In this document: piece by piece, positions 199 through 51,473 of the stretch
How the letters are laid out: every line of letters starts with the position of its first letter
How positions within the stretch are numbered: position 1 is the stretch's first letter
IMG/VR virus record: IMGVR_UViG_3300007276_005408
Location: 1-60,174 of that record
Source: a virus
DNA length: 60,174 bases
Reading direction: 5' to 3' (one strand)
Translations under genes and position numbers: made by a program
The notes under the pieces: generated by a model
The model's input: the letters and a program-made list of their open reading frames with translations, nothing else
What the model was told of the DNA's origin: nothing
Database searches by the model: none

Positions 199-235
199 CT
201 GTTTTCTCCTGTTATTGTAGTACCATCCACCAGTA

Positions 236-673
236 TTATATCCACATTCCGTACAAAAGTACTATTAGTCCAGTAGCTGGTAAGATATAAATCTTTTTAC
301 CACCCCACCAAGGAATGTCGTACCCTAAGATATGCCATTTGTAATCTATTGGTTTATAAATTGTTCCTTTATTTACATGATTCAAAGCGGCTTCATAACA
401 AAATGTTCCTATGAACCAACTACCAACACCTAACCAAAAGAATTTAGAGAATGAAGCTTCAATAAAGAATGCCACAATTACAGCACCCCATATGCCTACA
501 TTCTCTAAAATTCTCCACATATGATAATCGAATATACCATTCTTTCCGTTGTTCGGGTGTATTAGTTTATTCTTATTTTTTCTTGCTTTAGTACTCCAAG
601 TCCAACCTTCAGTTACACCCTCACTAAACCAATAAAGAATTATTAGTAAACAAAATAGTATTTGTAATATCAT
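236..673 (-). CDS. Polytopic membrane protein, unknown function
   Basis: A 145-residue protein starting behind AAGGAG. Hydrophobic stretches at about residues 2-17, 57-73, 78-95 and 128-145 suggest three or four membrane helices; residues 20-50 and 96-127 are polar and aromatic-rich. It lies between the two outer-membrane barrel paralogues in the same orientation, so it is probably part of an envelope-remodelling group. No family recognised. Confidence 0.7.
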   Translation of the reverse strand: MILQILFCLLIILYWFSEGVTEGWTWSTKARKNKNKLIHPNNGKNGIFDYHMWRILENVGIWGAVIVAFFIEASFSKFFWLGVGSWFIGTFCYEAALNHVNKGTIYKPIDYKWHILGYDIPWWGGKKIYILPATGLIVLLYGMWI

Positions 674-684
674 ATGCTTTCTCC

Positions 685-879
685 TTACTTACTTCCAAAC
701 ATTTTAGAAAAGAAGCCTTTCTTCTTTCCTTTCTTGCCTTTCTGTATTTTCTTGCCCTTCTTCTTTTTCTTCTTTTTGATTTCTCCCATTCCTGCCATCT
801 TCATATCTGAAGCATTAGCAGTCGGAACTGCACCAAAGAATATTATCAAAGAAAGTATTCCTGTTAGTATTGTTTTCAT
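685..879 (-). CDS. Short secreted lysine-rich protein
   Basis: A 64-residue protein. The ATG at 879 is preferred over a start 15 codons upstream because AAGGAG lies just before it and because it then begins with a clean signal peptide: MKTILTGILSLIIFFG followed by ANA. The mature part is about 40 residues and mostly lysine and glycine, with runs of up to seven lysines, ending in GFFSKMFGSK. Export followed by binding to anionic surfaces (LPS, DNA, phospholipid) is an inference from charge. It sits inside the outer-membrane gene group. No homologue recognised. Confidence 0.7.
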   Translation of the reverse strand: MKTILTGILSLIIFFGAVPTANASDMKMAGMGEIKKKKKKKGKKIQKGKKGKKKGFFSKMFGSK

Positions 880-902
880 TATACGCTCCTTGCGTTGTCT
901 AT

Positions 903-941
903 TTATTTTTTGCCACATTGGCAATTTTCACATTCACACAT
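903..941 (-). CDS. 12-residue cysteine-rich micro-ORF
   Basis: ATG at 941 lies six bases after AAGGAG. It is followed by 11 codons and a TAA, encoding MCECENCQCGKK. Four cysteines in a C-x-C-x2-C-x-C arrangement look like a metal-binding peptide. It fits exactly between the barrel gene at 952 and the lysine-rich gene. Evidence is the strong ribosome site and the non-random composition; expression is unproven. Confidence 0.4.
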   Translation of the reverse strand: MCECENCQCGKK

Positions 942-951
942 AGTATTCTCC

Positions 952-2250
952 TTACCATCCTACAAATTGATAATTCATACCGAACTTTATATCATAAGCC
1001 GGCCTTTCCCAATAGTAAAGGTATCTACCTTCTGTAAATACTCCTAAATTTTCCATTACCTTTACTCCTAATATAGCACCCATATCATAATCATTCCAAC
1101 TATGCCACATAGGTTCCATAAACATAAATTCACTTGGTTCACCACCCTCTTCTAAATGGGTCTGATAATTAGCAGCATTATGGTATGCGTGGTCTGTATG
1201 TCCATAATGAACAGGTAACCAATTACCCCAACCATGTATCCACCAATTATCATCATAGTGGTAAAAGTCTATACCCAATACCAAAGATGTTTCACTTTGG
1301 TATCCTAAATCTTTTTTCTTTCCATTGATATACTTCTCTAACATTCTTGGAAAGTGATATACAAAATATTCTCTATCTGTATAAGCAAATAACTTACCAT
1401 CGGCATCTCTCCATAACCAATCATGTCCCCAATACTCGCCTCTACCGTTCCAAAAAGGACCTGAACCTTCTACTTCTCTAACTTCACCTGTTTCAGGATC
1501 TACTTCATAAAGTGTTCTTTTTTCCCAGCCAGTAGGTGAATCAGGATCTATCATAGTAGAATCATACCACATATTATCATCGACATCAAAAGCATCTTCA
1601 GCAAAGTTCCACCATTGTCCCTTATACCAAGTGGTATCTAAAACCATAGCATCAAATCCATATACAGGATGTTGTCTGTGTTTTAGTCCAATAGAAAAGT
1701 GTAGCTTGTTATTTAGTGCTTCTGGCGTAAGATGTAATCTCAAATCTCCGTGTATGTAACTCAAGTCTTCCAATCCTAACTCTGTCCAACCGACTTTAGT
1801 CATAGCCCAATCACCAATGTATCTTACCCAATATTCTTGGTTTACATAATCATTACCCCATTGTCTACCTTCAGACCATTTCATTAGGTATTCCCAACCT
1901 TTTATAGGACCAAATGTGGCACTTTCATTAGCATTTGATTCTGAACCATCGTACCATTCTCCACCATTACCAGCATTTCTCACACCTCTTTTTGGTTCAT
2001 ATTGAAATCTTGCAATCTTACGAAGTCCAAATGATGTTTGAAAATCAGGCTTTAATTCTCTCTCTGTTCTTTCTACTTGAAGTAATCCAGTTGATAATCC
2101 ACCAACTATAGCGAATCTATCATCTTGATATCGTGGAGCATTCAAACTAAAACTGCCATAAGCAGTAGAATACTTTAAAAACTTCCATATTTCATTTTCA
2201 GCAAATAACGATGAGACCAATAACAGGCCTATTATCATTTTTTTCAACAT
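952..2250 (-). CDS. Outer-membrane beta-barrel protein
   Basis: A 432-residue protein, start at 2250 behind AGGAG. Residues 1-17 are a signal peptide (MLKKMIIGLLLVSSLFA). The rest is rich in Trp, Tyr and Gly with alternating polar/hydrophobic strands and ends in an aromatic residue (YQFVGW), as expected for an outer-membrane barrel. An extended aromatic and acidic loop region lies near residues 195-300. It is the full-length sibling of the fragment at 1-198. Phages rarely carry host-type barrels; roles in uptake or receptor masking are inferences. I cannot name the family. Confidence 0.75.
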   Translation of the reverse strand: MLKKMIIGLLLVSSLFAENEIWKFLKYSTAYGSFSLNAPRYQDDRFAIVGGLSTGLLQVERTERELKPDFQTSFGLRKIARFQYEPKRGVRNAGNGGEWYDGSESNANESATFGPIKGWEYLMKWSEGRQWGNDYVNQEYWVRYIGDWAMTKVGWTELGLEDLSYIHGDLRLHLTPEALNNKLHFSIGLKHRQHPVYGFDAMVLDTTWYKGQWWNFAEDAFDVDDNMWYDSTMIDPDSPTGWEKRTLYEVDPETGEVREVEGSGPFWNGRGEYWGHDWLWRDADGKLFAYTDREYFVYHFPRMLEKYINGKKKDLGYQSETSLVLGIDFYHYDDNWWIHGWGNWLPVHYGHTDHAYHNAANYQTHLEEGGEPSEFMFMEPMWHSWNDYDMGAILGVKVMENLGVFTEGRYLYYWERPAYDIKFGMNYQFVGW

Positions 2251-2299
2251 CTCTTTTCTCCTAAAGGATAGACTTTACTCATATAAATATATACTACCC

Positions 2300-2566
2300 T
2301 TAATTATATTCAGGAACAAATCTGAACTCATCATCACAAACGGCAAAAGTCAATATCCATTTCTTATCTTTACCTTCGTCCCATTCTTCGTAACTAGAAA
2401 GAACACAAGTATCAGTTGTCATTCTCTTTACAACTTTATCCATTTGGTCTTCTGTATTGCAAATGATATTTATTTCATCACCATTAGACTTTACCATTAC
2501 CATATTATCTGCATTGTTATAAACAGCATCAGACCTCAATCTCCGTCTTTGTTTACTTTTAGCCAT
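2300..2566 (-). CDS. Small basic-then-acidic protein, unknown
   Basis: An 88-residue protein. The ATG at 2566 (MAKSKQ) is chosen because GGAG lies six bases upstream and because it overlaps the stop of the preceding gene (2559-2783), as is usual here; an in-frame ATG at 2662 would overlap that gene far more. The N-terminus is basic (KSKQRRRLRS), followed by an alpha/beta-looking region with two Cys near residues 48 and 65. No family recognised. Confidence 0.65.
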   Translation of the reverse strand: MAKSKQRRRLRSDAVYNNADNMVMVKSNGDEINIICNTEDQMDKVVKRMTTDTCVLSSYEEWDEGKDKKWILTFAVCDDEFRFVPEYN

Positions 2567-2783
2567 TCTTTTCTCCATATAAGTCCCAAGTCTTTGGAGG
2601 CGGCTTTGGAGCTTCAATACCATCGTCAATAGTAATGCTTCCATTTTGTGCATCAACTTCAAAATATGCTACTCCTTTTTCTAAGAATATCTGATTCAGA
2701 CACTCAGTTAGTGATTCATAAACTGTATTACCCACTTTCCACCTGTCACCAGGCGGTACTCTTTCTGCAACATTTACTTTCAT
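2559..2783 (-). CDS. Small hypothetical protein
   Basis: A 74-residue protein with an AAGGAACT ribosome site and a start two bases from the phoH stop, so the two are probably co-translated. It is mixed alpha/beta with a proline-rich stretch (APKPPPKTW) close to the C-terminus. Function unknown. Confidence 0.7.
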   Translation of the reverse strand: MKVNVAERVPPGDRWKVGNTVYESLTECLNQIFLEKGVAYFEVDAQNGSITIDDGIEAPKPPPKTWDLYGEKNG

Positions 2784-2784
2784 A

Positions 2785-3615
2785 TTAGTTCCTTAAGTTA
2801 TAAAAATATCTATTCTTTGTTGTTGGTTCATCATATATCTGTCGCTCTATCCACATAGATAAAGTTTCTTCCGCTGATAGGATTCCTATATCATAATCAT
2901 CTTGATACCTTTCTAACATTTCAGCGACAATAGGATGTCTAACGACATCGCTTAAGTCAAACTGACTGAATCCCACTCTTCGTAATCCAGTGAACCTTTT
3001 GATAGCATCCTCTAAACCATTTTCATTTTTGATATCAGATTGCATCAAATCACCATTTATGATATATTTACTTCCTTGTCCTATACGAGTTACGAAAGTT
3101 TTTATTTGTGATGGTGTGGCATTTTGTGCTTCGTCCAATACAACTATACTATCTGTTAGTGTTAGTCCTCTCATATATGCTAAAGGAATAACTTGTACTA
3201 CTCCAGCCTTTTTGAGAACATCCAATCTTTGTTTACCAATAATCTGTTCCATATTGTAATATAACGACATCATATAAGGAGCAGTCTTCTCATCTATATC
3301 ACCAGGTAGGTATCCCATCTTTTCACCATCAACTTCTACCAGTGGTTTTGTAATCACCAACTTATCATACTTACCTTGAGCCAAATTCTTTAGAGCATAA
3401 TGTGTAGCCAAATATGTCTTACCACATCCAGCAGGACCTATTGAAAATGTAACATCGTTTCTTCCAATAGTTCGATAGAATGTTTTCTGATTTGGTGTTC
3501 TAAATTCTAGACTACTCCAATCGATTCTTTTGATTTGTGATAGAGCTTGTCTTTTATTCTCACAGGGTTGGTCTGCCTTGACTTGTGTAACCGTCTTTAC
3601 CTTGGATTTATCCAT
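2785..3615 (-). CDS. phoH: PhoH-like P-loop ATPase
   Basis: A 276-residue protein. Walker A is GPAGCGKT at 60-67 and Walker B is IVVLDEAQN at 157-165, followed by the PhoH-type TPSQIK-F-TRIG segment and the IINGDLMQSD motif near 190. This is the classic PhoH core of cytoplasmic ATPases found in many marine phages, where it is a common marker; its phage function is unsettled. The first 35 residues are a Lys-rich extension. A strong AGGAG precedes the start. Confidence 0.95.
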   Translation of the reverse strand: MDKSKVKTVTQVKADQPCENKRQALSQIKRIDWSSLEFRTPNQKTFYRTIGRNDVTFSIGPAGCGKTYLATHYALKNLAQGKYDKLVITKPLVEVDGEKMGYLPGDIDEKTAPYMMSLYYNMEQIIGKQRLDVLKKAGVVQVIPLAYMRGLTLTDSIVVLDEAQNATPSQIKTFVTRIGQGSKYIINGDLMQSDIKNENGLEDAIKRFTGLRRVGFSQFDLSDVVRHPIVAEMLERYQDDYDIGILSAEETLSMWIERQIYDEPTTKNRYFYNLRN

Positions 3616-3636
3616 TGGGATTCTCCTCTATTTTAG

Positions 3637-3936
3637 TTAGTAACTCGGTATTCCTTTAGTAATAAATATAATATATACTTTCTTAAGATAAGGTTTTACT
3701 TCTTTATTTAAGATTTCCAATAACTCCTTTGTAAGAAAATCAAACTCAGGATATTTTGTCAAAGCATCTATAAGATTATTTACATACTCTGACGGCATCG
3801 TATCCAATTTATACTCACCAGTTATAACTGCTTGTTCTATAAAAGTATTTATAGCAGCTGCTAAATCTGCTGGTACTCTTGATGTTGCTCTTAAATGTTT
3901 ATATCTCTTAAGTTGCTCTAACTCTTCTTGACTCAT
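3637..3936 (-). CDS. Helical hypothetical protein
   Basis: A 99-residue protein predicted mostly helical, with an amphipathic N-terminus (MSQEELEQLKRYKHL) and several Leu/Ile heptads. It lies between phoH and the first capsid-leader gene and lacks a leader of its own. No family recognised. Confidence 0.7.
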   Translation of the reverse strand: MSQEELEQLKRYKHLRATSRVPADLAAAINTFIEQAVITGEYKLDTMPSEYVNNLIDALTKYPEFDFLTKELLEILNKEVKPYLKKVYIIFITKGIPSY

Positions 3937-3939
3937 AAC

Positions 3940-4326
3940 CTATCCTATTGAATATTTTTTTGTACTTGACTTGAAATTCCTTTTCCTCATAATTGTTTTA
4001 GCTATCATCTCTAACTCTTTCCCATTCCATCTCAGAACCACTGGTACATTTATATCTGTACTCATATCTTTTAGTAGTATATTTACACCATCAGGTATTT
4101 GAGATATTGGCTTACCATACTTCTTATATATCTGTCTGTATATCTTTATTAGTTCTGCTGGATTTATAGGTTTACCATTTCTCGCATCATTTACTCTGTC
4201 CATAAAGTGTCTTGTAAATTCAACATCAATACCAACGCTTCCCCATACCTTATCTAAGTATTTCTCTACTTGATTTAGTTCACCTTGTGAAACAGCTTCT
4301 AATAATAAGTCTTTTAGTTTTATCAT
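3940..4326 (-). CDS. Leader-tagged virion cargo candidate, conserved phage protein
   Basis: A 128-residue protein that begins MIKLKDLLLE-AVSQ. The ten-residue leader ends in L-x-E, the cleavage consensus of T4-type prohead proteases, and resembles the T4 internal-protein capsid-targeting leader (MKTYQEFIAE-A). The body contains FTRHFMDRVNDARNGKPI and a VLRWNGKELEMIAKTIMRKRNFK tail, a pattern I know from uncharacterised proteins of other marine T4-like phages. Start overlaps the upstream stop by four bases. Packaging and ejection are inferences. Confidence 0.8.
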   Translation of the reverse strand: MIKLKDLLLEAVSQGELNQVEKYLDKVWGSVGIDVEFTRHFMDRVNDARNGKPINPAELIKIYRQIYKKYGKPISQIPDGVNILLKDMSTDINVPVVLRWNGKELEMIAKTIMRKRNFKSSTKKYSIG

Positions 4327-5237
4327 ACCTGGTCTATTATACCTTCTCTTTTACCAAACCATTGTCTAAACTTTGCTGGTGTACCAATTGTTACTTTACT
4401 CTTTGGTACATATTTGTATAACTCTTCTTGATATCTACCTGGCTTACCAAATTGTTCCCAGTTACCATCTTTAGTTATCCTACTCAACACAAAAGCGTCT
4501 ATGATTTTAGTATTATATATAAGTATCTCATTCCACCACGCAGATGGTTTATTTTCTACAGACCTAAGTCTTTTTTTGAATATCTCTTTGTTTGCCATTA
4601 GATATTTATTTTGCCAGTCAAAATAGGCTTTTATAAATTTGTTTACCATAGGACCAACAGCTTTCTTTTTCTTTTTTTCTATCTCATTCCAAGGCATCTT
4701 AGCATCGTCTTCCATCCACTGGTCTCGTAACTTTTCTTCTAAGTCATACATATCAGATTTCAACTTATCATACTTCTTACGCCATCCAGCAGCTCTTACA
4801 GCTTTGTTCCATACCTCTCTGTCACCTGTAATATAATGTCCTTCCATCCATCTACGGCCTGTCTTATCAGGCACACTATCGAAGTCCATATATCTAGTTG
4901 CTAATAAGTCACCTCTCACATAAAATACGATACCACCTATGGTCTGTATACCTTTACCTTTTGCTAAGGGTGAGTCTTTGTTAGCACGAGTGAATGTAGA
5001 TATAGACCTTTTCTTACCAAGTATATTATCTACTGTTTTTAGATGTTCAGGACTAGTAACATGAAAGGAGCTGATAGGTTGTTTACCAAACATCGATTCT
5101 AATTGCTTAGGATATAGTGCTATCATATCCATCGAACTAATGTTTGCCATTGTTGTTCTGGTATGTGCTGGATACCAGAGAGTTTTACCTTTGTGAGTAA
5201 GCCAATCCTCTGTCAATAAATCTTTGAGTTTTATCAC
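4323..5237 (-). CDS. Leader-tagged virion cargo candidate, possible ADP-ribosyltransferase-like
   Basis: A 304-residue protein with a GTG start at 5237; leader MIKLKDLLTE then DWLTHK. Residues 55-115 (SSFHVTSPEHLKTV, then KKRSISTFTRA, then GGIVFYVRGDLLA) and a late WWNEILI segment recall the order of motifs in ADP-ribosyltransferases (STS-like strand, then an E-containing strand). T4 packages its Alt ADP-ribosyltransferase in the head, so the idea is reasonable but weak. The middle is a Lys/Glu-rich coiled region (about 155-215). Alternative: an unrelated internal head protein. Confidence 0.75.
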   Translation of the reverse strand: MIKLKDLLTEDWLTHKGKTLWYPAHTRTTMANISSMDMIALYPKQLESMFGKQPISSFHVTSPEHLKTVDNILGKKRSISTFTRANKDSPLAKGKGIQTIGGIVFYVRGDLLATRYMDFDSVPDKTGRRWMEGHYITGDREVWNKAVRAAGWRKKYDKLKSDMYDLEEKLRDQWMEDDAKMPWNEIEKKKKKAVGPMVNKFIKAYFDWQNKYLMANKEIFKKRLRSVENKPSAWWNEILIYNTKIIDAFVLSRITKDGNWEQFGKPGRYQEELYKYVPKSKVTIGTPAKFRQWFGKREGIIDQV

Positions 5238-5240
5238 TGT

Positions 5241-5606
5241 CTATAACCAATTCTTCCAGATACTGTAAGAATAATTACTTGATATTTTTCTCAAATGTTT
5301 TTCAGTACCTGTTCCACCTTTTTTAGTAATAATTCTATATGCTTTCTTTTTGCCACCATCTATAAGAAAAACTCCGCCTGGTAGATTACCAATCTGCATT
5401 CCTCTATCAACTCTTACTTTAGTAGCTTTATCTCTGTAAATCATTTTGTTACCACCAGGTCCAGCAGTAGACCATTGGCCTGTTGGTTCTTTACCACCAG
5501 CAGCAATATAAAGATCATATGGTTTCATTACTTCCCAATATTCTGTATCACTTCCGTATAATGGATGTTTGTATGCTTCATTTACTAAATCTTTTAGTTT
5601 AATCAT
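5241..5606 (-). CDS. Leader-tagged virion cargo candidate, unknown
   Basis: A 121-residue protein beginning MIKLKDLVNE-AYKH, leader ending in V-x-E. The body is Gly/Lys/Tyr-rich and basic with no recognised domain (GGKEPTGQWSTAGPGGNKM, then a KKGGTGTEKHLRK segment). Same leader and close packing as its neighbours; the start overlaps the upstream stop by four bases. Confidence 0.75.
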   Translation of the reverse strand: MIKLKDLVNEAYKHPLYGSDTEYWEVMKPYDLYIAAGGKEPTGQWSTAGPGGNKMIYRDKATKVRVDRGMQIGNLPGGVFLIDGGKKKAYRIITKKGGTGTEKHLRKISSNYSYSIWKNWL

Positions 5607-6025
5607 ACCCTAACCTTATACTTACTCTTTAGAATACTCTCAACTTCTTTCTGACTTTTACCAATTATCATATCTATGTTTTTAGTAACCGGTATAGTTT
5701 TGTTACTAACTTTGATATCTAAATTTACTTCACCAACAATAGCAGAAACATATTTTCTTGCAGCCTTTGCTTTAGCATATCCACTTCTTCCGTGATGTAC
5801 ACCTTTTTCATCATATGTTTTTACGATTTCTAATTTATCCTTTGCTTCAGCTGATATGTTTCTACCTACCTCTGAAGCTAGTATTTTATCAGCAGAAGCC
5901 GATAACATTCCAGCACCCATTCCTTTAGAACGTATCTTTGACCTTCCAACTGCAACTACTCCTCTTGGATTCGGTGTTATAGCAACAAAGAAACTTTCAG
6001 TTAGTAAGTCTTTTAGTTTTATCAT
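5603..6025 (-). CDS. Leader-tagged virion cargo candidate, unknown
   Basis: A 140-residue protein beginning MIKLKDLLTE-SFFV. The first 20 bases of the gene are almost identical to those of the gene starting at 4326. The body is basic (SKIRSKGMGAGM, SGYAKAKAARKYVSA) and could bind DNA in the head. Start overlaps the upstream stop by four bases. No domain recognised. Confidence 0.75.
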   Translation of the reverse strand: MIKLKDLLTESFFVAITPNPRGVVAVGRSKIRSKGMGAGMLSASADKILASEVGRNISAEAKDKLEIVKTYDEKGVHHGRSGYAKAKAARKYVSAIVGEVNLDIKVSNKTIPVTKNIDMIIGKSQKEVESILKSKYKVRV

Positions 6026-6351
6026 TGTTGGTATTTCCTATCTTTAGTCATCTCTAACATAAGTTTTGATTTAGTATAGATGTATTCTATTTCTTCTATA
6101 GTAGTCATATCATTCTGATTCTTTATAGCTCTCTGTAAGTTTTTAGCACTGTCTAATAGATACTTTGCTTGACCACGAATCTGAGAATAAAAGTTTACAT
6201 TCAAATCCTCTACTACAGTATCCTTACCACCTTTTCTTTCAAACTCTGTAAGTCCATCTGGCTCACCATTGAATTTTTTAGACCATCTATTTTCTAATTT
6301 TTTGAAATCAGTATTGTTCCATTCTTTTAGTAAGTTCTTTAGTTTTATCAT
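6022..6351 (-). CDS. Leader-tagged virion cargo candidate, unknown
   Basis: A 109-residue, mostly helical protein beginning MIKLKNLLKE-WNNT. It has many charged residues and no Cys. Start and stop overlap the neighbouring cargo genes by one and four bases. The leader is the only feature linking it to the others; the body is unrelated by eye. Confidence 0.75.
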   Translation of the reverse strand: MIKLKNLLKEWNNTDFKKLENRWSKKFNGEPDGLTEFERKGGKDTVVEDLNVNFYSQIRGQAKYLLDSAKNLQRAIKNQNDMTTIEEIEYIYTKSKLMLEMTKDRKYQQ

Positions 6352-6644
6352 TACAGTACTCCGTGTATAATATCAAAATTAGAATATGTCTTCTTCAATA
6401 AATTCATAAATGGTTTTTCCATATCATTTCTAACCATACTAAGACCTCGTGGTAAACTTCCTACGACATCTTGTATGTCTATAATTCCTTGATAGAATTT
6501 CATATGTTGTTTACTACCAACCATCTTAGCTAATTCATATCTGGCCATAGTATGATTGTTTCTATCAGTAAGCATGCGAATCTTTTCTATATAAGCACCA
6601 CCTAACTCTTTTTTTTCTGTGAGTAAAGTTTTTAGTTTTACCAT
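6351..6644 (-). CDS. Leader-tagged virion cargo candidate, unknown
   Basis: A 97-residue, mostly helical protein beginning MVKLKTLLTE-KKEL, the most divergent leader that still keeps K-L-K-x-L-L-x-E. Start overlaps the upstream stop by seven bases. No domain recognised. Confidence 0.75.
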   Translation of the reverse strand: MVKLKTLLTEKKELGGAYIEKIRMLTDRNNHTMARYELAKMVGSKQHMKFYQGIIDIQDVVGSLPRGLSMVRNDMEKPFMNLLKKTYSNFDIIHGVL

Positions 6645-8410
6645 TTTCTACAACTCCAGTAACGGGCCTTGTGTCTAGGTCCTGGTGAATCACAATTATG
6701 TCTAGCTCTAAAAGATGCTCTAGCTTTAGGATTGGATTTTCTAATTCTCATAGTCCCACCCTTAGCATCACCACCTTGTCCAAAGTTTACTTTTACAACA
6801 TTGCCCTTTGGGTTCTTTACATATACTTTAAATTTCTTTTGGTCACCCTGCATAATTTTTCCTAACTTCACTTTCCTACCTTGGTATTCAGCTTCTGTTA
6901 GTGATAAGTCTTTTACATGCTCTAATGTGTATCCATGACCTTCACCATTTGTTTCGTAATAAACTTCAATTACTTCTTTCACACAATTAGGAACTTTTCT
7001 TCCACCCTTATCTTTCATTCCAACTTGTTTATATCCTACCCAACAAGCTTCGTCTACAGATTCTTTCTTCTTTAGTTTAGCATACTTCTTCATAGCATCT
7101 CTACTCTTCTGATTCTTCTTATTATACTTAGATAATTTTTTAGAGAACTTATCACCCAAACCTTCTTTTACTACTTTTAAAATTTTAAAACCTCTACCTT
7201 TATTTGAAGCATTAAAATCTCTTTTTGCTAAATTAGAATTTTTTGCCCTCATAATATCAGTTTTCTTTCTACCAGTAGAATCTTGATATGTTATTTTATA
7301 CATAGGTTCACTCATTTCATTCACACCTTCACCTAATACTCTCTTGACGGAATTCATAGTATCCATCCACCAATCTTGAGCAGGACCATGACCTGGTATT
7401 TGTAATCTATTTACCCAAGGACTTGGATAAGCTCCTTTGAAATCTTTATTAGCATCTTTTTCAAGATACTTAGTAATCTGTTTTACTCTTTCTCTTTCGT
7501 TCTGTCCTCTTTTTATGTATCCTCTTGCTTTTAGTTTTTGAGCAAACTTATTATCAGACTCTTTTACTGCTTCAGGTTCATCATTGATACCAACAATTTT
7601 TACTTGTGGTTTACCATTTACCATAACAACTTTAATCTTCTTACCTTTTTTAGCAAGCATTTGTGCATATGTAGCTTCACCTAAAGCAGAAAGTCCTGAT
7701 AAAGCCATAGCCTTACCTCTTGGTGATGAACTAGCATATGTTTTAGCAACATACTTGTAATGCTTTTTAATCATTTCAGTAGCATCTTTTGCACTGTTAC
7801 CATACTTGATAAGAAGTTGATATATCTTCTTCATCTCTACATTACTTTCTATGAGATGGTTGGTTTCATTTACAGACTCATTTGCTTTTTTAAGTGCTAC
7901 CTTTACTCGCTTATGATGTGATAGCCCTCTTCTAATTTTTTCAATTCCCTTAACAGCTCCTGTCATATTACCAGCCATTGATTTAGCTATCTTTTCTGCC
8001 TGTTTAATTTGTTTGAGTAGACTCAGTTCGTTTACGGATTCAAATTTTTTCATAAGTTTTCTCACCTTTTTCTTACTTTGTAAATTCTTAAAAATACCTG
8101 GTTTATATTTTTTCATATAAAGCAAATAATCGTATTGCTGTTTGTCGGATAATTTGTTTTCTTTGACACCTAATTTTTTCATTGTATGTGCCATCTTTTT
8201 TATAGTTGGAATCTTCCTACCCATATCACCTTTTCTGTATTGATGATAATCAAGCGCTATCTGTCCAAGTTTGACATTAGATACGTTTGGCAATTTATCT
8301 TTTAAATGTTTTACAACTTTATTGAAAGCTCCCATATACTTTACATTGTATGTAGGATATTTATTGTTCAAATCCTTTATGAGTTCAAATGCTAATTTTT
8401 CTAATTTCAT
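6638..8410 (-). CDS. Multi-module virion protein with predicted internal processing sites
   Basis: A 590-residue, very basic protein. Short linkers ending in V/L-x-E recur between unlike modules: VNE at 126-128, 180-182 and 363-365, VDE at 452-454 and LTE at 504-506. The module after 454 is a small Cys/Trp unit (ACWVGYKQVGMKDKGGRKVP then NC). The one after 506 (AEYQGRKVKLGKIMQG to the HNCDSPGP and RYWSCRKW end) is a basic unit I recognise from structural-region proteins of other large phages. The residues before each module match the prohead-protease consensus, so this may be a polyprotein cut inside the prohead. Its own N-terminus (MKLEKLAFE) is only a weak leader match. Confidence 0.75.
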   Translation of the reverse strand: MKLEKLAFELIKDLNNKYPTYNVKYMGAFNKVVKHLKDKLPNVSNVKLGQIALDYHQYRKGDMGRKIPTIKKMAHTMKKLGVKENKLSDKQQYDYLLYMKKYKPGIFKNLQSKKKVRKLMKKFESVNELSLLKQIKQAEKIAKSMAGNMTGAVKGIEKIRRGLSHHKRVKVALKKANESVNETNHLIESNVEMKKIYQLLIKYGNSAKDATEMIKKHYKYVAKTYASSSPRGKAMALSGLSALGEATYAQMLAKKGKKIKVVMVNGKPQVKIVGINDEPEAVKESDNKFAQKLKARGYIKRGQNERERVKQITKYLEKDANKDFKGAYPSPWVNRLQIPGHGPAQDWWMDTMNSVKRVLGEGVNEMSEPMYKITYQDSTGRKKTDIMRAKNSNLAKRDFNASNKGRGFKILKVVKEGLGDKFSKKLSKYNKKNQKSRDAMKKYAKLKKKESVDEACWVGYKQVGMKDKGGRKVPNCVKEVIEVYYETNGEGHGYTLEHVKDLSLTEAEYQGRKVKLGKIMQGDQKKFKVYVKNPKGNVVKVNFGQGGDAKGGTMRIRKSNPKARASFRARHNCDSPGPRHKARYWSCRKW

Positions 8411-8853
8411 TATTTACCTTTTTTCCAACCACCACCAGCTGCTTTATATTGTCTAGCGGCCCAACCATTTGCATATGCTGATGGATAAACATCAAACTTC
8501 TTTTTAGCTTGTGATTTATAATAAGACCATTTACTTGCATCTGTTGGTACATTCTTTTCTAAGAACATATTTAGTTTTTGTTCTGCAATTTCCTTTGTCA
8601 TCACTTTACCCTCTTTTTGCTTATCATAATAATCTTTAGGATGAAATTTCATTTCTACTACTTTTCCATCTTTCGTAATACTTTTGCCATCAACTATAAT
8701 TTCTACTGGATATGGTTTGTTTGGTTTATCATACCAATAAGCCATTTTGTATCCACCATTATCAAGCAGTTTGACTAACATACCTCTTTCGTAGTCTTTG
8801 TCTTCTGCTTTGAGAACTTTAGTCTCTCCTCTTGGTAATACTAAATCAGCCAT
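8410..8853 (-). CDS. Conserved phage protein with KKKFDVYPSAYAN motif
   Basis: A 147-residue protein with no leader. Residues 1-85 are a beta-rich region. The C-terminus reads KWSYYKSQAKKKFDVYPSAY then ANGWAARQYKAAGGGWKKGK, a short motif that recurs in proteins of many large phages and of large eukaryotic viruses, usually at a C-terminus and of unknown function. It starts on the last base of the upstream cargo gene. Likely a virion or DNA-associated protein, by context. Confidence 0.7.
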   Translation of the reverse strand: MADLVLPRGETKVLKAEDKDYERGMLVKLLDNGGYKMAYWYDKPNKPYPVEIIVDGKSITKDGKVVEMKFHPKDYYDKQKEGKVMTKEIAEQKLNMFLEKNVPTDASKWSYYKSQAKKKFDVYPSAYANGWAARQYKAAGGGWKKGK

Positions 8854-9833
8854 TATGAACCTTTGCCTGTTCCACTCTTTTTACCTTTAGTATGAGTAGA
8901 AACATTTACTGGCTTCCTACCTTGTCCTTTGATTTTCTTACCACCTCTACCAGCTTTGTTCTGTGCCGCCCTCTTCCTACGAGTTGCCGATTCTTTTTCT
9001 TTTTTAGACATCGAAGCAGCCTTTGATGCTGGTACACATTTAGCATATCCACGTTTATCTCCACTAGTTCCACAAGCAGGATGTTTACCAGATTTATCTT
9101 TCTTACCGATATTTACCCACTTTGATTTGAACCAATTTCTCAAATCTTCGTTTACAATATTACCACAGTTTACACAAGTATTTTCTTTTATAGCATTTAT
9201 TACTTGTTCTGTTTTTGATTTCTTTTTTAGTAGATGAGATCCTGCTGGTTCATCTCCCAACTCTCCGTCAACACCATAGCCACAAGTTCCTTCTCTATAG
9301 ACTATTTTACCATTTTTAGCTTCTATACCAATTCTGTGGTTTGAATACTTCTTTCTCAAATCAGCTAACTCTGCTGGAATCTCTTTTAGATTCTTTACAG
9401 ATACTTGCTTTACTACTTTATTATTTTTACTTACTATAAGATTCCAAGGTCCTGATGTAGGGCCCTTACGAACAGATTTCATAACCTTTGAAGTGCCTGA
9501 CATATCTTCATTCTGAGATTGATTCTCATTATCACTATCATCACTTTTCATATGATGAGTTAGATAATCTTTTACTGAATTCATATAGTCTGCTGATTTT
9601 GTAATCTTAGCTTCTAACCACTCAGGCAAGTCCATATCCTTATCTATCATTTTGAATACTGCCACAGCATCTTCTGCTATCTCTTTAGCATCGTACTTAG
9701 CCATCTTACCTTCTCTTTTATCGTGATGGTCTTCGTGCATATACTTCTTTTTTCTGTATAGAAGTTCTACGCCATCGATATGTCCAGCAACATAGTCTTG
9801 TGGCTTTTCTAATAGTAAGTCTTTTAGCTTCAT
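8853..9833 (-). CDS. Leader-tagged multi-module virion protein
   Basis: A 326-residue protein beginning MKLKDLLLE-KPQD. Residues 43-95 (AKYDAKEIAEDA to ADYMNSVKDYL) form a helical unit seen in prohead-associated proteins of marine T4-like phages. Residues 110-180 are a beta-rich unit. VNE at 227-229 precedes a basic Cys-containing unit (DLRNWFKSKWVNIG, CGTSGDKRGYAKCVPASKAA) that ends in a Gly/Lys/Arg tail. A CxxC pair lies at 220-223. The architecture again suggests proteolytic release of modules during prohead maturation. Confidence 0.75.
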   Translation of the reverse strand: MKLKDLLLEKPQDYVAGHIDGVELLYRKKKYMHEDHHDKREGKMAKYDAKEIAEDAVAVFKMIDKDMDLPEWLEAKITKSADYMNSVKDYLTHHMKSDDSDNENQSQNEDMSGTSKVMKSVRKGPTSGPWNLIVSKNNKVVKQVSVKNLKEIPAELADLRKKYSNHRIGIEAKNGKIVYREGTCGYGVDGELGDEPAGSHLLKKKSKTEQVINAIKENTCVNCGNIVNEDLRNWFKSKWVNIGKKDKSGKHPACGTSGDKRGYAKCVPASKAASMSKKEKESATRRKRAAQNKAGRGGKKIKGQGRKPVNVSTHTKGKKSGTGKGS

Positions 9834-10189
9834 TAGTTACCTAATAGTTTACTAATAATTTTTTGTTCTAACTTACCACCATACTGTCTAGCATAATATT
9901 CAGCATCACCTTTAGATTGTTTCTTAGGAGCTGCTTTCTTTGGTTCATCTTTCTTTTTGAACTTATCTTTTATTCTTTGAAAGATACTTTTTGCTTTCTT
10001 ATGTGCTGATGGGTCTTTCTTACTATATCCACTTTGACGAGCAGTATTTACAGATACTTTTTTGCCTTGTGCATTTTGTATTGCCATCCTAGCTGCAGTT
10101 GCTATTACTGCTGGATTTTCTGTAAGAAATGATTCGGTGAAAGCCTGTACCTCTTCGTGTACAATAGCTTCTATTTGTTTTTTATCCAT
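9833..10189 (-). CDS. Virion cargo candidate with internal LTE site
   Basis: A 118-residue protein. The ATG at 10189 is chosen because CGGAG lies just upstream; the alternative start at 10219 would place that site inside the gene. The leader is longer (MDKKQIEAIVHEEVQAFTES then FLTE at 21-24) and precedes a basic body (NPAVIATAARMAIQNAQGKK, later KAKSIFQRIKDKFKKKDEPK). By context and site it belongs to the head-cargo set. It is the first gene of the cassette in transcription order. Confidence 0.7.
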   Translation of the reverse strand: MDKKQIEAIVHEEVQAFTESFLTENPAVIATAARMAIQNAQGKKVSVNTARQSGYSKKDPSAHKKAKSIFQRIKDKFKKKDEPKKAAPKKQSKGDAEYYARQYGGKLEQKIISKLLGN

Positions 10190-24537: not shown

Positions 24538-24644
24538 TACTTACCTTTTTTCTTATCCTGTGATAACTTTTCAGCTATTGCTGTTATTTTCTTTTCTATT
24601 GACGCTAATAAATTGACAATAGCATTTGCCTGTTGTTCATTCAT
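24537..24644 (-). CDS. Tiny helical protein
   Basis: A 35-residue ORF (MNEQQANAIVNLLASIEKKI then TAIAEKLSQDKKKGK) that starts on the stop of the Mom-like gene and ends on the next ATG. A short amphipathic helix; function unknown. Confidence 0.5.
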   Translation of the reverse strand: MNEQQANAIVNLLASIEKKITAIAEKLSQDKKKGK

Positions 24645-25408
24645 GATGATACTCCTGTTTGTTTATGTACTTCTACTTTTATAACTTCTGACTCTGTTAT
24701 ATTTCTTACTTTAGGGTATGGTAACAGTGGATGTTTCATAGTCTTCATGGCCATTCTCTTATCACTTTTATTACCGAGCAAGTAAACATACCTATGTTTC
24801 CTCATCTCCCTTTTTACCCAAAAATCTTTCTCAACTAAACTTTTCATTTTCTTTATATCGTTTGTCCCGTAATATGGAAATATGGTTCTTCCATGCTGCC
24901 ACTTACCATCTTCTTCAAACTTATATAACCAACTCTCCGTCCACCTCAGATTATCTCCTTGATACAACCAATTGGTTGCCTGATATACAGTACCAACATG
25001 ACCTCTCATTGGGTCTGAATATGATATGAGAGCTTTTATCTTTTGTTTATACTTCTTTAGCCATCTGAAACTCTCTCCTATTAGATAAGACTCAGCATTA
25101 CTACCATACCCATCATGTACAAATAATCTAACCAACTCATATACTGACTTTCTATCTATTGAAGTTGCTATTGAAGCACCTGAATGTCTACCTATTGGGT
25201 CTCCATAACATATCGTACCGATTAGTTTTTCTTCTTTACCCTCAAAAAATGTATGTTCATTATCTGTAGTATAATATAAACCCAAAGCAACAGAACATTT
25301 AGTCCATTGTTTTGAATAGTGGTTAGCAACAATCATTTCTTTTGCTAACATTCTAGGTATTTCTCTAACAGATAATCTGCTAGAATCTACATACTTTTCT
25401 ATAGCCAT
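24641..25408 (-). CDS. Mom-like DNA-modification GNAT protein (paralogue 1)
   Basis: A 255-residue protein. ANHYSKQWTKCSVALGLYY, then YELVRLFVHDGYGSNAESYL, then LISYSDPMRGHVGTVYQATN then W match the core of the phage Mu Mom family, GNAT-fold enzymes that modify adenine in DNA and protect it from restriction. A closely similar paralogue lies at 53683-54444 and a more distant one at 51463-52089. Substrate and product in this phage are not known. Confidence 0.8.
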   Translation of the reverse strand: MAIEKYVDSSRLSVREIPRMLAKEMIVANHYSKQWTKCSVALGLYYTTDNEHTFFEGKEEKLIGTICYGDPIGRHSGASIATSIDRKSVYELVRLFVHDGYGSNAESYLIGESFRWLKKYKQKIKALISYSDPMRGHVGTVYQATNWLYQGDNLRWTESWLYKFEEDGKWQHGRTIFPYYGTNDIKKMKSLVEKDFWVKREMRKHRYVYLLGNKSDKRMAMKTMKHPLLPYPKVRNITESEVIKVEVHKQTGVSS

Positions 25409-28212: not shown

Positions 28213-29409
28213 TTATTTCACTAAAATCAAATCTTTTTCATATGAGTCAAGTGAACTTATATAAAATTTGAATACTTCTAATTCAAACTCTCCAATATCT
28301 CCACTATCTTTTAGTATATTTGCCAGATTGGTTATAACCTGAAAGTTTTCTTGAGTCAAATCTCTACAATCAAACTCAACACATATATCATGCAACTCTG
28401 ATATTTTACTGTTACCATATAACTTTATCCTCTCTCCCAAATTATATGTTGTATTTGGTTGTTCTTCTCTTATGTATTCTGACATACAATCTGAGTCTTG
28501 TAAATCCAAATATATTTTATCACAGAAAGGTTCTAACTCTTTTAGTAAATTTACTGTACAATTGTAAGCTACAAAACCTATATCATACTTAGGTGATACC
28601 ACTGGTTTCATATATTGATCATGTTGTACCATTGTTCCCCACTTACGAATAAAGTTTCTCATATTCTTTGTGGTGGTATGTATCCACTCTGGACTATCTT
28701 TGCCTGGTGCTCCACCTGATGATGGATTGAACCTACTACCTCTACTTGTCATGTGATATACAAGTCCTCTCCAAGTCTGTATGAACTCCAATCCTAAAAG
28801 ATGAAATCGATTGAATATATCAGAGTCCTCTTTTGATTGTGGAGCAAATAATTTATCATGACCACCAGTCTTCCAATAGTCTTCTTTGTATATAGCCCAA
28901 GGTGCAAATATTCCTTCTGTGTCTCCGTTCTGATGTGGATTCTCTTCTACAAATTGAAGTAATCCTAGCTCATCAAACTCTTCAGGTTCTATTCCAAAGT
29001 CCTTTACTATTTTCTCAGGACCTCCAGGATGAAGAGGTGGTTCTATTCTTGTAGCACTCACCACAGTCCCTTTCTCTATCTTCTTTAGAACCTCAGTATC
29101 TAAGTTAGGACAAGCATACATATCTGCGTGAAAAAACATAACTATATCGTTACTGGCTTTCTCACATAAAAAGTCATACCAATAAACAATACCCTTTCTC
29201 TCAGGTCCTTTGTTTCTGAATATTTGTACATTAGGGTCTTTCTTTTTTATAGTCTGTAACCACTTCCAAGTACCATCATCTGAGAAATCATCTCCGAACA
29301 TTATTTCGTGTCTGTAACCTAAGTTCTTTCTGATACTATTGTAAGACCACTCTAAATATTTTAGATTGTTTCTACTTGGTTGTATAAAACTAATGGTTTT
29401 TTGCGACAT
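28213..29409 (-). CDS. GT2-type glycosyltransferase with C-terminal extension
   Basis: A 398-residue protein. MSQKTISFIQPSRNNLKYLE then IMFGDDFSDDGTWKWL is the family 2 nucleotide-binding start; FFHADMY carries the DxD-type motif near residue 95; YWKTGGHDKLFAPQSKEDSD is the acceptor-side ED motif. Residues 265-398 are an extra domain without recognised similarity. Last gene of the glycan island in transcription order. Confidence 0.8.
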   Translation of the reverse strand: MSQKTISFIQPSRNNLKYLEWSYNSIRKNLGYRHEIMFGDDFSDDGTWKWLQTIKKKDPNVQIFRNKGPERKGIVYWYDFLCEKASNDIVMFFHADMYACPNLDTEVLKKIEKGTVVSATRIEPPLHPGGPEKIVKDFGIEPEEFDELGLLQFVEENPHQNGDTEGIFAPWAIYKEDYWKTGGHDKLFAPQSKEDSDIFNRFHLLGLEFIQTWRGLVYHMTSRGSRFNPSSGGAPGKDSPEWIHTTTKNMRNFIRKWGTMVQHDQYMKPVVSPKYDIGFVAYNCTVNLLKELEPFCDKIYLDLQDSDCMSEYIREEQPNTTYNLGERIKLYGNSKISELHDICVEFDCRDLTQENFQVITNLANILKDSGDIGEFELEVFKFYISSLDSYEKDLILVK

Positions 29410-30280
29410 AATTATCCTTTATATATTCTATAATATCTACAGTTGGATTCCATCCTAATAATTCTTTTGCTTTAGTATCGGTGTTTAGTGTTTCTCTAGC
29501 TTCGCCAGGCCACGCATCAATGTATTCCAATGAATAGAACTGACCAAAGGCACCAGCTATATCATTGATAGAATAATTCTTACCTCTACCCAACTCTATT
29601 TCTTCTGCTTCGTATCTCATATCTACAGCACCATGCATAGCTTCCATCGACTTTACTATACCATCAACTATGTCACCTACATAAGTAAAATCTCTTCTCT
29701 GCTCTCCGTCACCTGTAATAGTTAATGGCTTACCTTCAGTATAAAGTCTTTCAAAAATACCTAATACATTACAATAAGCACCCTCTGTCGCTTGATGTTC
29801 CCCATATACATTATAGAACCTCGTTATTATTGTTGGCACATCATATATTTTGGAATACATTTTGATTACTTCTTCACCTAACCATTTTGTAAAGGTGTAT
29901 GGGTTAGCATATTTATCTCCATGCGTTGATGATGAGCCAGCATATACCAAAGGACAACCCAATCCTCTTACCCATTCCATAACAGATTGTGTTCCTAAAG
30001 AGTTAGCTTCAAAACTCAATGATGGGTGGTCGAATGATGGTTGTATCCTAGCTAAAGCTGCTAAATGAAATACACCATCCACATTATCAGGCATATCTGA
30101 ATACATATCGATATTACTGATGTCCATTTCTGTATAATTTACATTTTCATCCTCAATATGATTCTCTTTTTTACCAGTAGAATAGTTATCCAAACTGAAA
30201 ACTTTATGACCATCTGATAATAGTCTTTTTATTAGATTAGTACCAACAAATCCAGCACCACCCGTTACTACAAAATTCAT
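29390..30280 (-). CDS. NAD-dependent nucleotide-sugar epimerase/dehydratase
   Basis: A 296-residue protein of the extended short-chain dehydrogenase family. GGAGFVG (7-13) binds NAD; Y128-x3-K132 (NPYTFTK) is the catalytic pair; GDGEQRRDFTYVGDIV is the nucleotide-sugar-side motif. Closest in style to UDP-glucose 4-epimerases. Supplies an activated sugar to the adjoining glycosyltransferases. Confidence 0.9.
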   Translation of the reverse strand: MNFVVTGGAGFVGTNLIKRLLSDGHKVFSLDNYSTGKKENHIEDENVNYTEMDISNIDMYSDMPDNVDGVFHLAALARIQPSFDHPSLSFEANSLGTQSVMEWVRGLGCPLVYAGSSSTHGDKYANPYTFTKWLGEEVIKMYSKIYDVPTIITRFYNVYGEHQATEGAYCNVLGIFERLYTEGKPLTITGDGEQRRDFTYVGDIVDGIVKSMEAMHGAVDMRYEAEEIELGRGKNYSINDIAGAFGQFYSLEYIDAWPGEARETLNTDTKAKELLGWNPTVDIIEYIKDNYVAKNH

Positions 30281-30918
30281 CCTATTCTCCTATATATTCC
30301 TATGCCACAAGTATTCTCATTACCAGTGACTTTGTAATTGACAGTGTTTTCGAATCCATCAAAATCACACTCTTCAATAAATCTTCTTACGCCTGGCATT
30401 TTATCGTTATCTATATCGTGGAATATAAAATAACCACCCACTTTTACCATCTGTGAATAGAACTCATAATCCTTTTTCACATACTCATAATCGTGGTTTC
30501 CATCACAAAAAACAATATCATATTCAAGACCCAAATTACTTACTTGTCTCTTTACTTTTTCACCAGTTGAGTCTCCTATAATAAATACTGTCCCATCTTT
30601 AAAAGATAGGTTTCCTACAAGAGATTTTTCTACATTTGGGCATAATAAAGCATCCACTATTACATTATTGTCTATGTTCAAATTGTTCCAAAACATAGTA
30701 TTAGTTAGATTTGAAGCAGTCCCTATCTCCAAAAAGTTTATTGGCTTTTCTTCAAATTTATCTTGAAAGTAAACTAAAGTACTAGCAAACTCTTCAGGTA
30801 CCTGCATCAGATAATCTCTGTCACCATCGAACAATTTAGTTCCACCATAAGCGACTGGAGCATTAGCCTTTATTATCTCATAAAATTCTCTGTAACTTCC
30901 CACTATAAAGTCTCCCAT
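30277..30918 (-). CDS. Class I SAM methyltransferase
   Basis: A 213-residue protein. INFLEIGTASNLTN is motif I, VIVDALLC the acidic second strand, and YDIVFCDGNHDYEYVKKDYE followed by GGYFIFHDI the fourth strand and loop, as in the MT24/cephalosporin-hydroxylase-like group. Four-base overlap with the epimerase. Likely sugar O-methylation. Confidence 0.75.
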   Translation of the reverse strand: MGDFIVGSYREFYEIIKANAPVAYGGTKLFDGDRDYLMQVPEEFASTLVYFQDKFEEKPINFLEIGTASNLTNTMFWNNLNIDNNVIVDALLCPNVEKSLVGNLSFKDGTVFIIGDSTGEKVKRQVSNLGLEYDIVFCDGNHDYEYVKKDYEFYSQMVKVGGYFIFHDIDNDKMPGVRRFIEECDFDGFENTVNYKVTGNENTCGIGIYRRIG

Positions 30919-31838
30919 ATTTTTTTCATATAGTGATGGAATGTTTTTTCACTATAAGTAGATTCATATAATTCCTTTGTTTCAGCTGAACAACTATTAT
31001 AAAATCCTTTATCATATTTTAGTCTTTTAGCAATAGATTTAGCAGCACCTATGTCACCGACAGCAACAGTTGTTTTTGGATGGCAAATATTTTGTGTTCT
31101 GAAAGTCTCTATACCAATACAAGGTATACCTAAATAAGAACAATTCAGATTGAACGTACCAGCGCCAGGCTCACCTAAATGTACAGCATATTTATTCTTT
31201 GATAGCTCATACATCCAAGTCAACCAATCTACCCACTCTAAATGTGCTATATCCATACCTCTCTCTTCAGGTTTCATTCTACCAGTAACAGGCGCTCTCA
31301 AATCTTCTGATAATACCTTACCAACTACATAATCATCAAATCCTCTATAAATACTGACGAAATTTCCACCTAACATAACACTTTCTGTTTTTTCTTCTGA
31401 TACTTTTACTTCGTCTGTAATCATAAGTGTTGGTAGATACTCACATCTAACATCTAAAAGACCCTCATAATATTTCTTATCTATCTCATTGTGACAAAAT
31501 ATTACATCCATCTCTACCAAAGTATTGAAATACCATATTTGGTCTTCAATTTCTCCATCTTGCCAATAATAAAATGTACTCTCTTGCATTACTGATACCC
31601 TCTTGCACACTCTACGATAATGCTCTATCAATGAAAACTCTCTCAACTTATCTTTATGTTGTTTAGGTATTATAAGAATACCCAAATCATAAGAGTTATC
31701 TGGCAAAGTACTAAGTTCATACCAATGGTGATGTGTGGCATTTAGTGAACATACCCAAGCTAAATCAGTTCTCATATTTGGATGATTTCTTGGTGGTGTT
31801 CCACTATAACCAGCTTCTGTAAAGAATCCTATTTTCAT
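30903..31838 (-). CDS. GT-B glycosyltransferase-like protein
   Basis: A 311-residue protein. The N-terminal half has MKIGFFTEAGYSGTPPRNHP and VMQESTFYYWQDGEIEDQIW; the C-terminal half has YAVHLGEPGAGTFNLNCSYL then GIPCIGIETFRTQN, the place where family 4-like enzymes bind the donor (G-x-x-N...S-x-x-G-x-P). Overlaps the methyltransferase by 16 bases. Confidence 0.65.
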   Translation of the reverse strand: MKIGFFTEAGYSGTPPRNHPNMRTDLAWVCSLNATHHHWYELSTLPDNSYDLGILIIPKQHKDKLREFSLIEHYRRVCKRVSVMQESTFYYWQDGEIEDQIWYFNTLVEMDVIFCHNEIDKKYYEGLLDVRCEYLPTLMITDEVKVSEEKTESVMLGGNFVSIYRGFDDYVVGKVLSEDLRAPVTGRMKPEERGMDIAHLEWVDWLTWMYELSKNKYAVHLGEPGAGTFNLNCSYLGIPCIGIETFRTQNICHPKTTVAVGDIGAAKSIAKRLKYDKGFYNSCSAETKELYESTYSEKTFHHYMKKIWETL

Positions 31839-32467
31839 CTTATAAACATTCTCTCTATTCTAAAGTGTTCAACTAACTCAAACCCAAACTTCAAACCATT
31901 GTAATTAGTATGAAATGCTCTTAGACTTTTGTCCATAAAATATGATTTGTCTTTTTGTGATGTAAAGTTCTGTAACATCTTGAGCTTCTCTTCACCAGCA
32001 AAGTATTTATCTAACCCTATATAGACATTAGGTTTCCAATCCTCTAATGTACTTGGTGTTTTATATGTAACCAGTCCAGTAGAACAATTCCTAATCAATG
32101 CCCAAGCTATATTATTAGCAATCCTATGTTCAAAATGAGAGTCTATATTTGGCGTAGTCATAATAATATCATAATCACTTATAGTATATTTTGACTCAAC
32201 TAAATTTATCCACGCATCTTCTGTTTTATCTTTTATATGTGAACCATTTACAAATTTACCATTGATATTCAGATACTCATCCCATATCTTCTGACACTCC
32301 CCATTTCTACCATCACCACTTGTGTCGTCAAAGTCGCCACCACTTGACATTACAGCAACATCAAAGTTTGTATCTTTATTTAGAATCATAGTACCTAACA
32401 TACCATATTCAGCATCATCAGGATGTGCTGAAAGACATAATACTTTTTTACAATCTAAGAATTTCAT
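31835..32467 (-). CDS. PIG-L/LmbE-type N-acetylsugar deacetylase
   Basis: A 210-residue protein. A14-H15-P16-D17-D18 is the zinc-binding HPDD motif, and IDSHFEHRIANN supplies the later HxxxH-type ligand. GDGRNGECQKIW matches the R-x-x-E helix. The family removes acetyl groups from GlcNAc-type sugars or conjugates, which would free an amine for further modification, for example by the ATP-grasp enzyme encoded just upstream. Confidence 0.85.
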   Translation of the reverse strand: MKFLDCKKVLCLSAHPDDAEYGMLGTMILNKDTNFDVAVMSSGGDFDDTSGDGRNGECQKIWDEYLNINGKFVNGSHIKDKTEDAWINLVESKYTISDYDIIMTTPNIDSHFEHRIANNIAWALIRNCSTGLVTYKTPSTLEDWKPNVYIGLDKYFAGEEKLKMLQNFTSQKDKSYFMDKSLRAFHTNYNGLKFGFELVEHFRIERMFIR

Positions 32468-34139: not shown

Positions 34140-34143
34140 TCCT

Positions 34144-35001: not shown

Positions 35002-35010
35002 TTTTTTCTC

Positions 35011-40476: not shown

Positions 40477-40477
40477 A

Positions 40478-46046: not shown

Positions 46047-46048
46047 AA

Positions 46049-51442: not shown

Positions 51443-51473
51443 TAAAGCTACGAACTTTTATGCTAAAAGTCAA
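51443..51473 (-). promoter_or_regulatory. Promoter copy 6 (TTG-N20-TAGCTTTA)
   Basis: Minus strand TTGACT, spacer with TTAGCATAAAAGTTCG, then TAGCTTTA. Points at 51035-51421; a GGAG lies before that gene's ATG. Overlaps the 3' end of the Mom-like gene. Confidence 0.8.

Follow-up and report, generated by a model that had tools for sequence, protein, structure and literature searches.

A leader resembling T4 capsid-targeting sequences on seven unrelated proteins of an uncultivated phage fragment

Introduction

The internal proteins of bacteriophage T4 (IPI, IPII and IPIII) and Alt each start with a ten-residue N-terminal leader, the capsid-targeting sequence (CTS), in which positions 4 and 7 are hydrophobic or aromatic, position 8 is L or I and position 10 is E. 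For IPIII the ten residues suffice for packaging, mutants show that targeting depends on residues 4 and 7 and processing on residues 8 and 10, and the T4 protease, gp21, cleaves after L/I-x-E (PMC9026906). The mature internal proteins diverge among themselves, and a published view holds that T4-like phages use CTSs to package a variety of proteins (PMC9026906). Here we describe a window of 60,174 bases, the entire IMG/VR record IMGVR_UViG_3300007276_005408 and itself a fragment, in which seven genes with unrelated bodies share a leader of this kind; we suggest that it is very likely a T4-type CTS.

The relatives of the window have T4-like head genes, including a PF03420 protease, and as in T4 the cargo is variable. 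The locus differs from T4 in that its leader is leucine-rich (MIKLKDLLTE, compared to MKTYQEFIAE in T4), in that up to seven tagged genes stand in one cassette, and in the presence of apparent multi-domain chains with protease sites at their joints. The giant phages SPN3US and phiKZ are alike in that their head protease strips N-terminal propeptides from packaged, ejected proteins; their propeptides, however, are mostly longer than 100 residues and the motif is A-x-E or S-x-E (PMC5694885). Our searches of openly licensed papers found no description of the leader in marine T4-like phages.

Results

The tagged cassette

The seven leader-tagged open reading frames (ORFs) lie at 3940-9833, all on the minus strand, which holds nearly all window genes. 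Six begin with the consensus M-(I/V)-K-L-K-x-L-(L/V)-x-E and the seventh, gene 8853, with MKLKDLLLE; several adjacent cassette genes overlap, by 1-4 bases. An ORF check agreed with the genes, coordinates, leader and ends given in a preliminary description made from the sequence alone, and corrected the start codon of gene 4323 to GTG. The seven mature N-termini listed in that description follow the L-x-E rule and are, like the cuts marked by arrows below, predictions.

4297..4326, minus strand: leader MIKLKDLLLE of gene 3940-4326; predicted cut LLLE↓AVSQ
3940..4296, minus strand: body of gene 3940, a compact alpha/beta domain of the GIDVEF..H family (phrog_23027, E 4e-21)
5208..5237, minus strand: leader MIKLKDLLTE (GTG start) of gene 4323-5237; predicted cut LLTE↓DWLT
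4323..5207, minus strand: body of gene 4323; orthologue G037:18001-18897, 58% over 305 aa
5577..5606, minus strand: leader MIKLKDLVNE of gene 5241-5606; predicted cut LVNE↓AYKH; orthologue G027:2635 has MIKLKELLDE
5241..5576, minus strand: body of gene 5241; no Pfam or PHROG match
5996..6025, minus strand: leader MIKLKDLLTE of gene 5603-6025; predicted cut LLTE↓SFFV
5603..5995, minus strand: body of gene 5603; orthologues found in close relatives only
6322..6351, minus strand: leader MIKLKNLLKE of gene 6022-6351; predicted cut LLKE↓WNNT
6022..6321, minus strand: body of gene 6022
6615..6644, minus strand: leader MVKLKTLLTE of gene 6351-6644; predicted cut LLTE↓KKEL
6351..6614, minus strand: body of gene 6351; tagged orthologues between protease and gp22 in G037 and G036
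9807..9833, minus strand: nine-residue leader MKLKDLLLE of gene 8853-9833; predicted cut LLLE↓KPQD
8853..9806, minus strand: body of gene 8853; many relatives have its C-terminal domain (residues 227-326) close to their protease gene

The conserved unit is a short peptide

We searched with a pattern derived from the T4 leaders, namely a hydrophobic or aromatic residue at 4 and 7, L/I/V at 8, E at 10 and a required K or R at 2 or 3, with a form one residue shorter also admitted. It matches eight starts in the window against 0.06 expected; one of these is spurious, an internal start in the sliding-clamp ORF, and the leader heads no further window gene. Across the window and ten related records, 46 of 1277 ORFs match where about one is expected. 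The likeness to the T4 leader that had been pointed out earlier holds for length, for the hydrophobic residues at 4 and 7, and for L/V at 8 and E at 10 in six of the seven leaders, the seventh fitting one residue shorter.

The first 20 or so bases of the genes had also been described as nearly the same, and the DNA pattern ATGATAAAACTAAAAGACTT does find five matches in the window (at most three mismatches) against 0.08 expected from shuffles; conservation, however, is of the peptide. When the seven genes are compared in pairs, codons 3-10 yield 90 identities, 44 synonymous differences and 34 non-synonymous ones, whereas the counts for codons 11-20 are 6, 2 and 202. The conserved unit is therefore a peptide that ends at residue 10 or 11, and the near-identity of the leader DNA is only partly the cause of the shared start. 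Within-window BLASTP aligns the tagged set only at about residues 1-14, all else being insignificant chance matches, so that the bodies are indeed unrelated and the similarity stops at the leader instead of running through a whole-length domain.

The AlphaFold2 (AF2) model of gene 3940 has a mean predicted local distance difference test (pLDDT) score of 91.9 overall, with 51 for residues 1-10 and at least 92 for the later blocks, as expected of a detachable leader. Its matches to PDB folds are weak (best E 0.04; RelE/HigB/ParE-type toxins at E 0.2 and above, with a template modelling score of about 0.35), and we therefore claim no function for the gene. The AF2 model of gene 4323 was uninformative (mean pLDDT 42) and was set aside; PDB sequence searches with gene 4323 and with the kinase discussed below gave nothing useful.

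The leader moves between bodies and the L-x-E step stays

Searching for the leader in related phages, as the preliminary description had proposed, shows it to recur on many unrelated bodies; with MIKLK(D/E)L as one of two patterns, at least 599 rows were returned from viral contigs. Orthologues of gene 4323 carry MIKLRDLITE or MIKLKNLLNE, and that of gene 6022 (G027:1896) starts MIKLKKLLE↓W, one residue shorter with L-x-E kept. The body of gene 3940 is widespread (577 relatives confirmed, of which 80 were kept) and carries other leaders elsewhere, MKTFNQYLLSE, MKSFKEHLTE, MRSFKEYILE and MLKFKQYISE, close in form to the T4 MKTYQEFIAE. Other contexts of this body are long fusions whose upstream parts end in INE, VNE, ILE or LVE, and L-x-E stands at the joint in 21 of 36 non-redundant contexts.

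If the leader ended in a protease site, that site should persist behind changed prefixes, and it does. The body of a zeta-toxin-like P-loop kinase (PF06414, E 2.3e-11) follows (L/I/V)-x-E and starts with G after 14 of 14 non-redundant, dissimilar prefixes, some of them short leaders and others the ends of long proteins. Likewise, the EYQG body, which forms the end of gene 6638, has (L/I/V/M)-x-E and then A or G behind 21 of 21 different prefixes, and for the GGAYGHM body P3 is hydrophobic in 11 of 11 and E is present in 9 of 11. The P2 position varies freely in these anchored families, and the background hydrophobic fraction is 0.27. A global junction scan of all homologous pairs gave a moderate excess only (882 against 564 expected) because alignment ends are fuzzy; for this reason the anchored families were used.

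In nearly all distinct capsid proteins listed for the group, L/I-x-E, mostly as LLDE↓A, stands at the propeptide end, at the place where the T4 gp23 cut is expected. LIE occurs close to the N-terminus of most proteases of the group, as is also noted for T4 gp21 (PMC9026906). One relative, G002, encodes a 1392-aa protein in which the leader MDKLTEFLIKPFLTE is followed by the kinase, two to three genes before terminase. Large tagged proteins of this kind are apparent polyproteins jointed by protease sites, and the L-x-E joints suggest that the head protease also divides packaged multi-domain proteins.

We also observed a family starting MVKLKDLVKDLELGKVYTDKD or MKLQDIIKDIELGKVYTDKD that has D, not E, at the cut position (G027:1500-1886, L363; G021:129294-129845, L134). 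A D at position 10 reportedly permits targeting in T4 but blocks processing (PMC9026906).

Tagged genes are concentrated in the head block of relatives

Relatives of gene 8853 are encoded by 72 viral contigs, and a gp21-type protease (PF03420) is found in 20 of 26 records with such relatives or similar to them, phrog_207 matches agreeing in family checks; searched against cultured phages, gene 8853 gave no match. The gene order in relatives is terminase, portal, protease, a run of small genes, a gp22-like scaffold and the capsid gene, the scaffold being named from its position and its similarity to genes in the same place in other records, with no family match. The gp21-type protease and gp22 scaffold that the preliminary description had proposed to look for are thus present in relatives, though neither was detected in the window. 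Tagged genes make up 13 of 102 ORFs in the terminase-to-capsid block and 14 of 671 outside it (P = 7e-6), and further ones lie up to 20 kb upstream of the block. The tagged orthologue of gene 4323 in G037 is immediately upstream of the terminase gene, and that of gene 6351 (53% over 97 aa in G037), also tagged, lies between protease and gp22, with the same placement in G036. In another relative (G007:5753-6079, L144), a ribosomal protein S21-like gene (phrog_21469) stands between tagged genes and gp22.

The DNA of G027, the closest relative, is 85-94% identical to the window across parts of 235-7061 and has the same cassette, with members partly different. A leaderless radical-SAM-like gene (G027:3034-3927, L363) occupies the place of window genes 3940 and 4323.

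Cargo and virion proteins

Tagged cargo that could be identified in relatives comprises the zeta-toxin-like kinase, a NUDIX hydrolase and a cytidylyltransferase with a poly(A)-polymerase head domain in one 1803-aa protein. Such enzymes would fit proteins that act early in infection, on the nucleotide or RNA metabolism of the host or on defence. Pelagibacter phage HTVC008M and Methylophilales phage Melnitz also encode related cargo.

A homologue of one cargo type has been detected in virions. The virion proteome of cyanophage S-SCSM1 includes a nicotinamide mononucleotide adenylyltransferase (NMNAT) by mass spectrometry, and NMNAT-like proteins are reported in further cyanophage virions (PMC9602691). 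The S-SCSM1 protein starts MKSFLQFLKE↓AAES, a T4-like leader, and is the sole ORF in that genome to fit the strict leader pattern. It is homologous to tagged cargo of the relatives: NMNAT homologues among the loci that we fetched start MIKNFSQYLLE, MTIKKFSDYIVE and MKFKDFLFE. The S-SCSM1 enzyme links leader form, cargo type and virion presence, as a single case that carries no statistic. Such NMNATs differ in that they are not encoded in the window and belong to another phage group, and the available part of that paper leaves the leader undiscussed.

A second recurrent start, MKKSQLREIIRKEL or MKISKKRLKEIILEE, is shared by unrelated proteins encoded close to head genes (L187, Flavobacterium phage immuto; G021:111838) and may be another packaging leader. 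A crude count gives 15 matches against 2.2 expected, with terminase genes and other families included.

Discussion

We consider it very likely that the shared N-terminus is a T4-type CTS that directs docking, is removed at L-x-E, precedes ejection of its cargo and spreads as a module. In the phage from which the window derives, hydrophobic residues 4 and 7 would dock the new protein into the scaffold core while the prohead forms; at residue 10, or at residue 9 in one gene, a gp21-type prohead protease would cut behind (L/I/V)-x-E, and the mature body, freed inside the head, would leave with the DNA at infection. The leader would be a transferable module that unrelated cargo genes acquire, the same cargo bearing other leaders in other phages, and larger cargo would consist of several domains in a row, with the same protease site at each joint. 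Phages of this group probably deliver a large variety of proteins to the cells that they infect. The chances seem to us evenly balanced that effector sets are packaged in this manner with some of them as polyproteins (combining kinase, nucleotidyltransferase, poly(A)-polymerase-like and small basic parts) that the prohead protease separates at L-x-E joints inside the capsid, one translation product thereby delivering several proteins along with the DNA.

A number of observations weigh against assigning a T4-type CTS. No terminase, portal, protease or capsid gene was detectable in the window using the relatives' proteins, and its own protease and that protease's specificity are therefore unseen. 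The cassette adjoins phoH in the window, G002 and G027, about 70 kb from terminase in G002, and G002, the longest syntenic relative, has terminase and portal but ends before protease. A wide range of residues follows the predicted cut, most often K; in four of the seven window genes the residue there is W, K or D, unlike the A or G of the best-supported sites, and some window sites may for that reason be cut poorly or not at all. Seven contexts of the gene 3940 body start at the body with no leader, and L-x-E is confined to the 21 of 36 given above. The DLRNWF domain is often preceded by T-N-E, and the DLRNWF, KNVPT and YDVEN domains either broke the joint rule or gave a mixed picture. The G001 relative of gene 8853, although 88% identical, is without the first 39 or so residues. 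Finally, those proteins detected by mass spectrometry in S-SCSM1 that have no structural role mostly misfit the strict leader, and we found no proteomics for any phage with the MIKLK form.

Because the window cassette adjoins phoH while tagged genes of relatives are concentrated in the head block, it looks like a satellite of the system seen there. There was no T4 record among the phage-genome matches of the three bodies searched, nor a PHROG or Pfam match naming T4 internal proteins or Alt; the mature T4 proteins diverge from one another too, and membership of the class does not depend on bodies homologous to those of T4.

The tagged proteins might instead be accessories of the prohead core or scaffold that are tagged and cut, then retained or degraded, with nothing delivered. 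Several small tagged genes adjoin gp22, and in T4 the protease gp21 cuts the core proteins gp67 and gp68 (PMC9026906). Yet the tagged bodies include enzyme-like proteins (the kinase, the cytidylyltransferase with poly(A)-polymerase head, the NUDIX hydrolase), and gene content differs among close relatives, unlike that of essential core parts, so we regard this explanation as unlikely. The location of some tagged genes far from the head block, and of the window cassette next to phoH, would suit a tag for another structure, such as tail, membrane or replication compartment, with L-x-E incidental. We judge that improbable: tagged genes are enriched in the head block, the capsid propeptide sites match, and hydrophobic-x-E is kept at joints inside long fusions, where an N-terminal tag is impossible.

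It is less probable still, in our view, that the shared start is a DNA-level cassette for translation initiation or gene starts, spread by recombination at overlapping gene ends. The overlaps of 1-4 bases and the alikeness of the first 20 bases would be explained, but synonymous changes outnumber the others in the leader (44 against 34), relatives retain the peptide, and beyond L-x-E conservation is lost. An ordinary domain homologous along whole proteins has next to no chance of being the answer, as only the first residues are common in the within-window BLASTP and the bodies bear other N-termini elsewhere.

If the assignment as a T4-type CTS is right, the principle is not new, since CTS-based packaging of varied proteins has been published (PMC9026906). 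What is new is the form of the leader, the scale, its presence in a large uncultivated T4-like group and the jointed architecture. The N-terminus would then be a readable code that marks virion cargo in this group, and the proteins that enter at the first moment of infection, including many families of unknown function, could be read off from sequence alone. The T4 paradigm of three internal proteins plus Alt would extend to cassettes of many, and the leaders would add to the capsid-targeting tags by which proteins can be loaded into T4-like heads.

Other genes of the window and its relatives

Three genes without the leader fall within the cassette interval.

6638..8410, minus strand: gene 6638, a 590-aa modular protein without leader; its segments match separate proteins elsewhere
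8410..8853, minus strand: gene 8410, a small neighbour without leader; PF19197-like, under the cut-off
9833..10189, minus strand: gene 9833, a neighbour without leader; contains FLTE↓NPAVIATAAR

Gene 6638 has several (L/V)-x-E joints, the clearest being SLTE↓AEYQGRKVKLG (residue 506) and SVDE↓ACWVGY (residue 454). The C-terminal 48 residues of gene 8410 (KNVPTD...) are a mobile domain common to proteins of relatives, and G019 has a longer head-block protein in which the joint of gene 9833 reappears as KLNE↓NPAVIATAAR.

Elsewhere in the window, three Mom-family proteins (PF25680, E about 1e-44 to 1e-47) are encoded at 24641-25408, 51463-52089 and 53683-54444 (minus strand), which suggests several DNA-modifying acyltransferases in one fragment. 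The minus-strand genes at 57856-60084 and 952-2250 look like large outer-membrane beta-barrels and have no Pfam match; by eye the former resembles a TonB-dependent receptor and the start of the latter is signal-peptide-like. A long run at 28213-47395 (minus strand) holds what appear by eye to be glycosyltransferase, sugar-nucleotide and methyltransferase genes, and within it 42281-43975 encodes an HMGL-like domain fused to a cytidylyltransferase. In two relatives, starts resembling type IV prepilins (KGFTLIELIMVTIILGILAAVAIPRY) occur near phoH (G002:53603-55510, L170; G027:10504-11642, L363).

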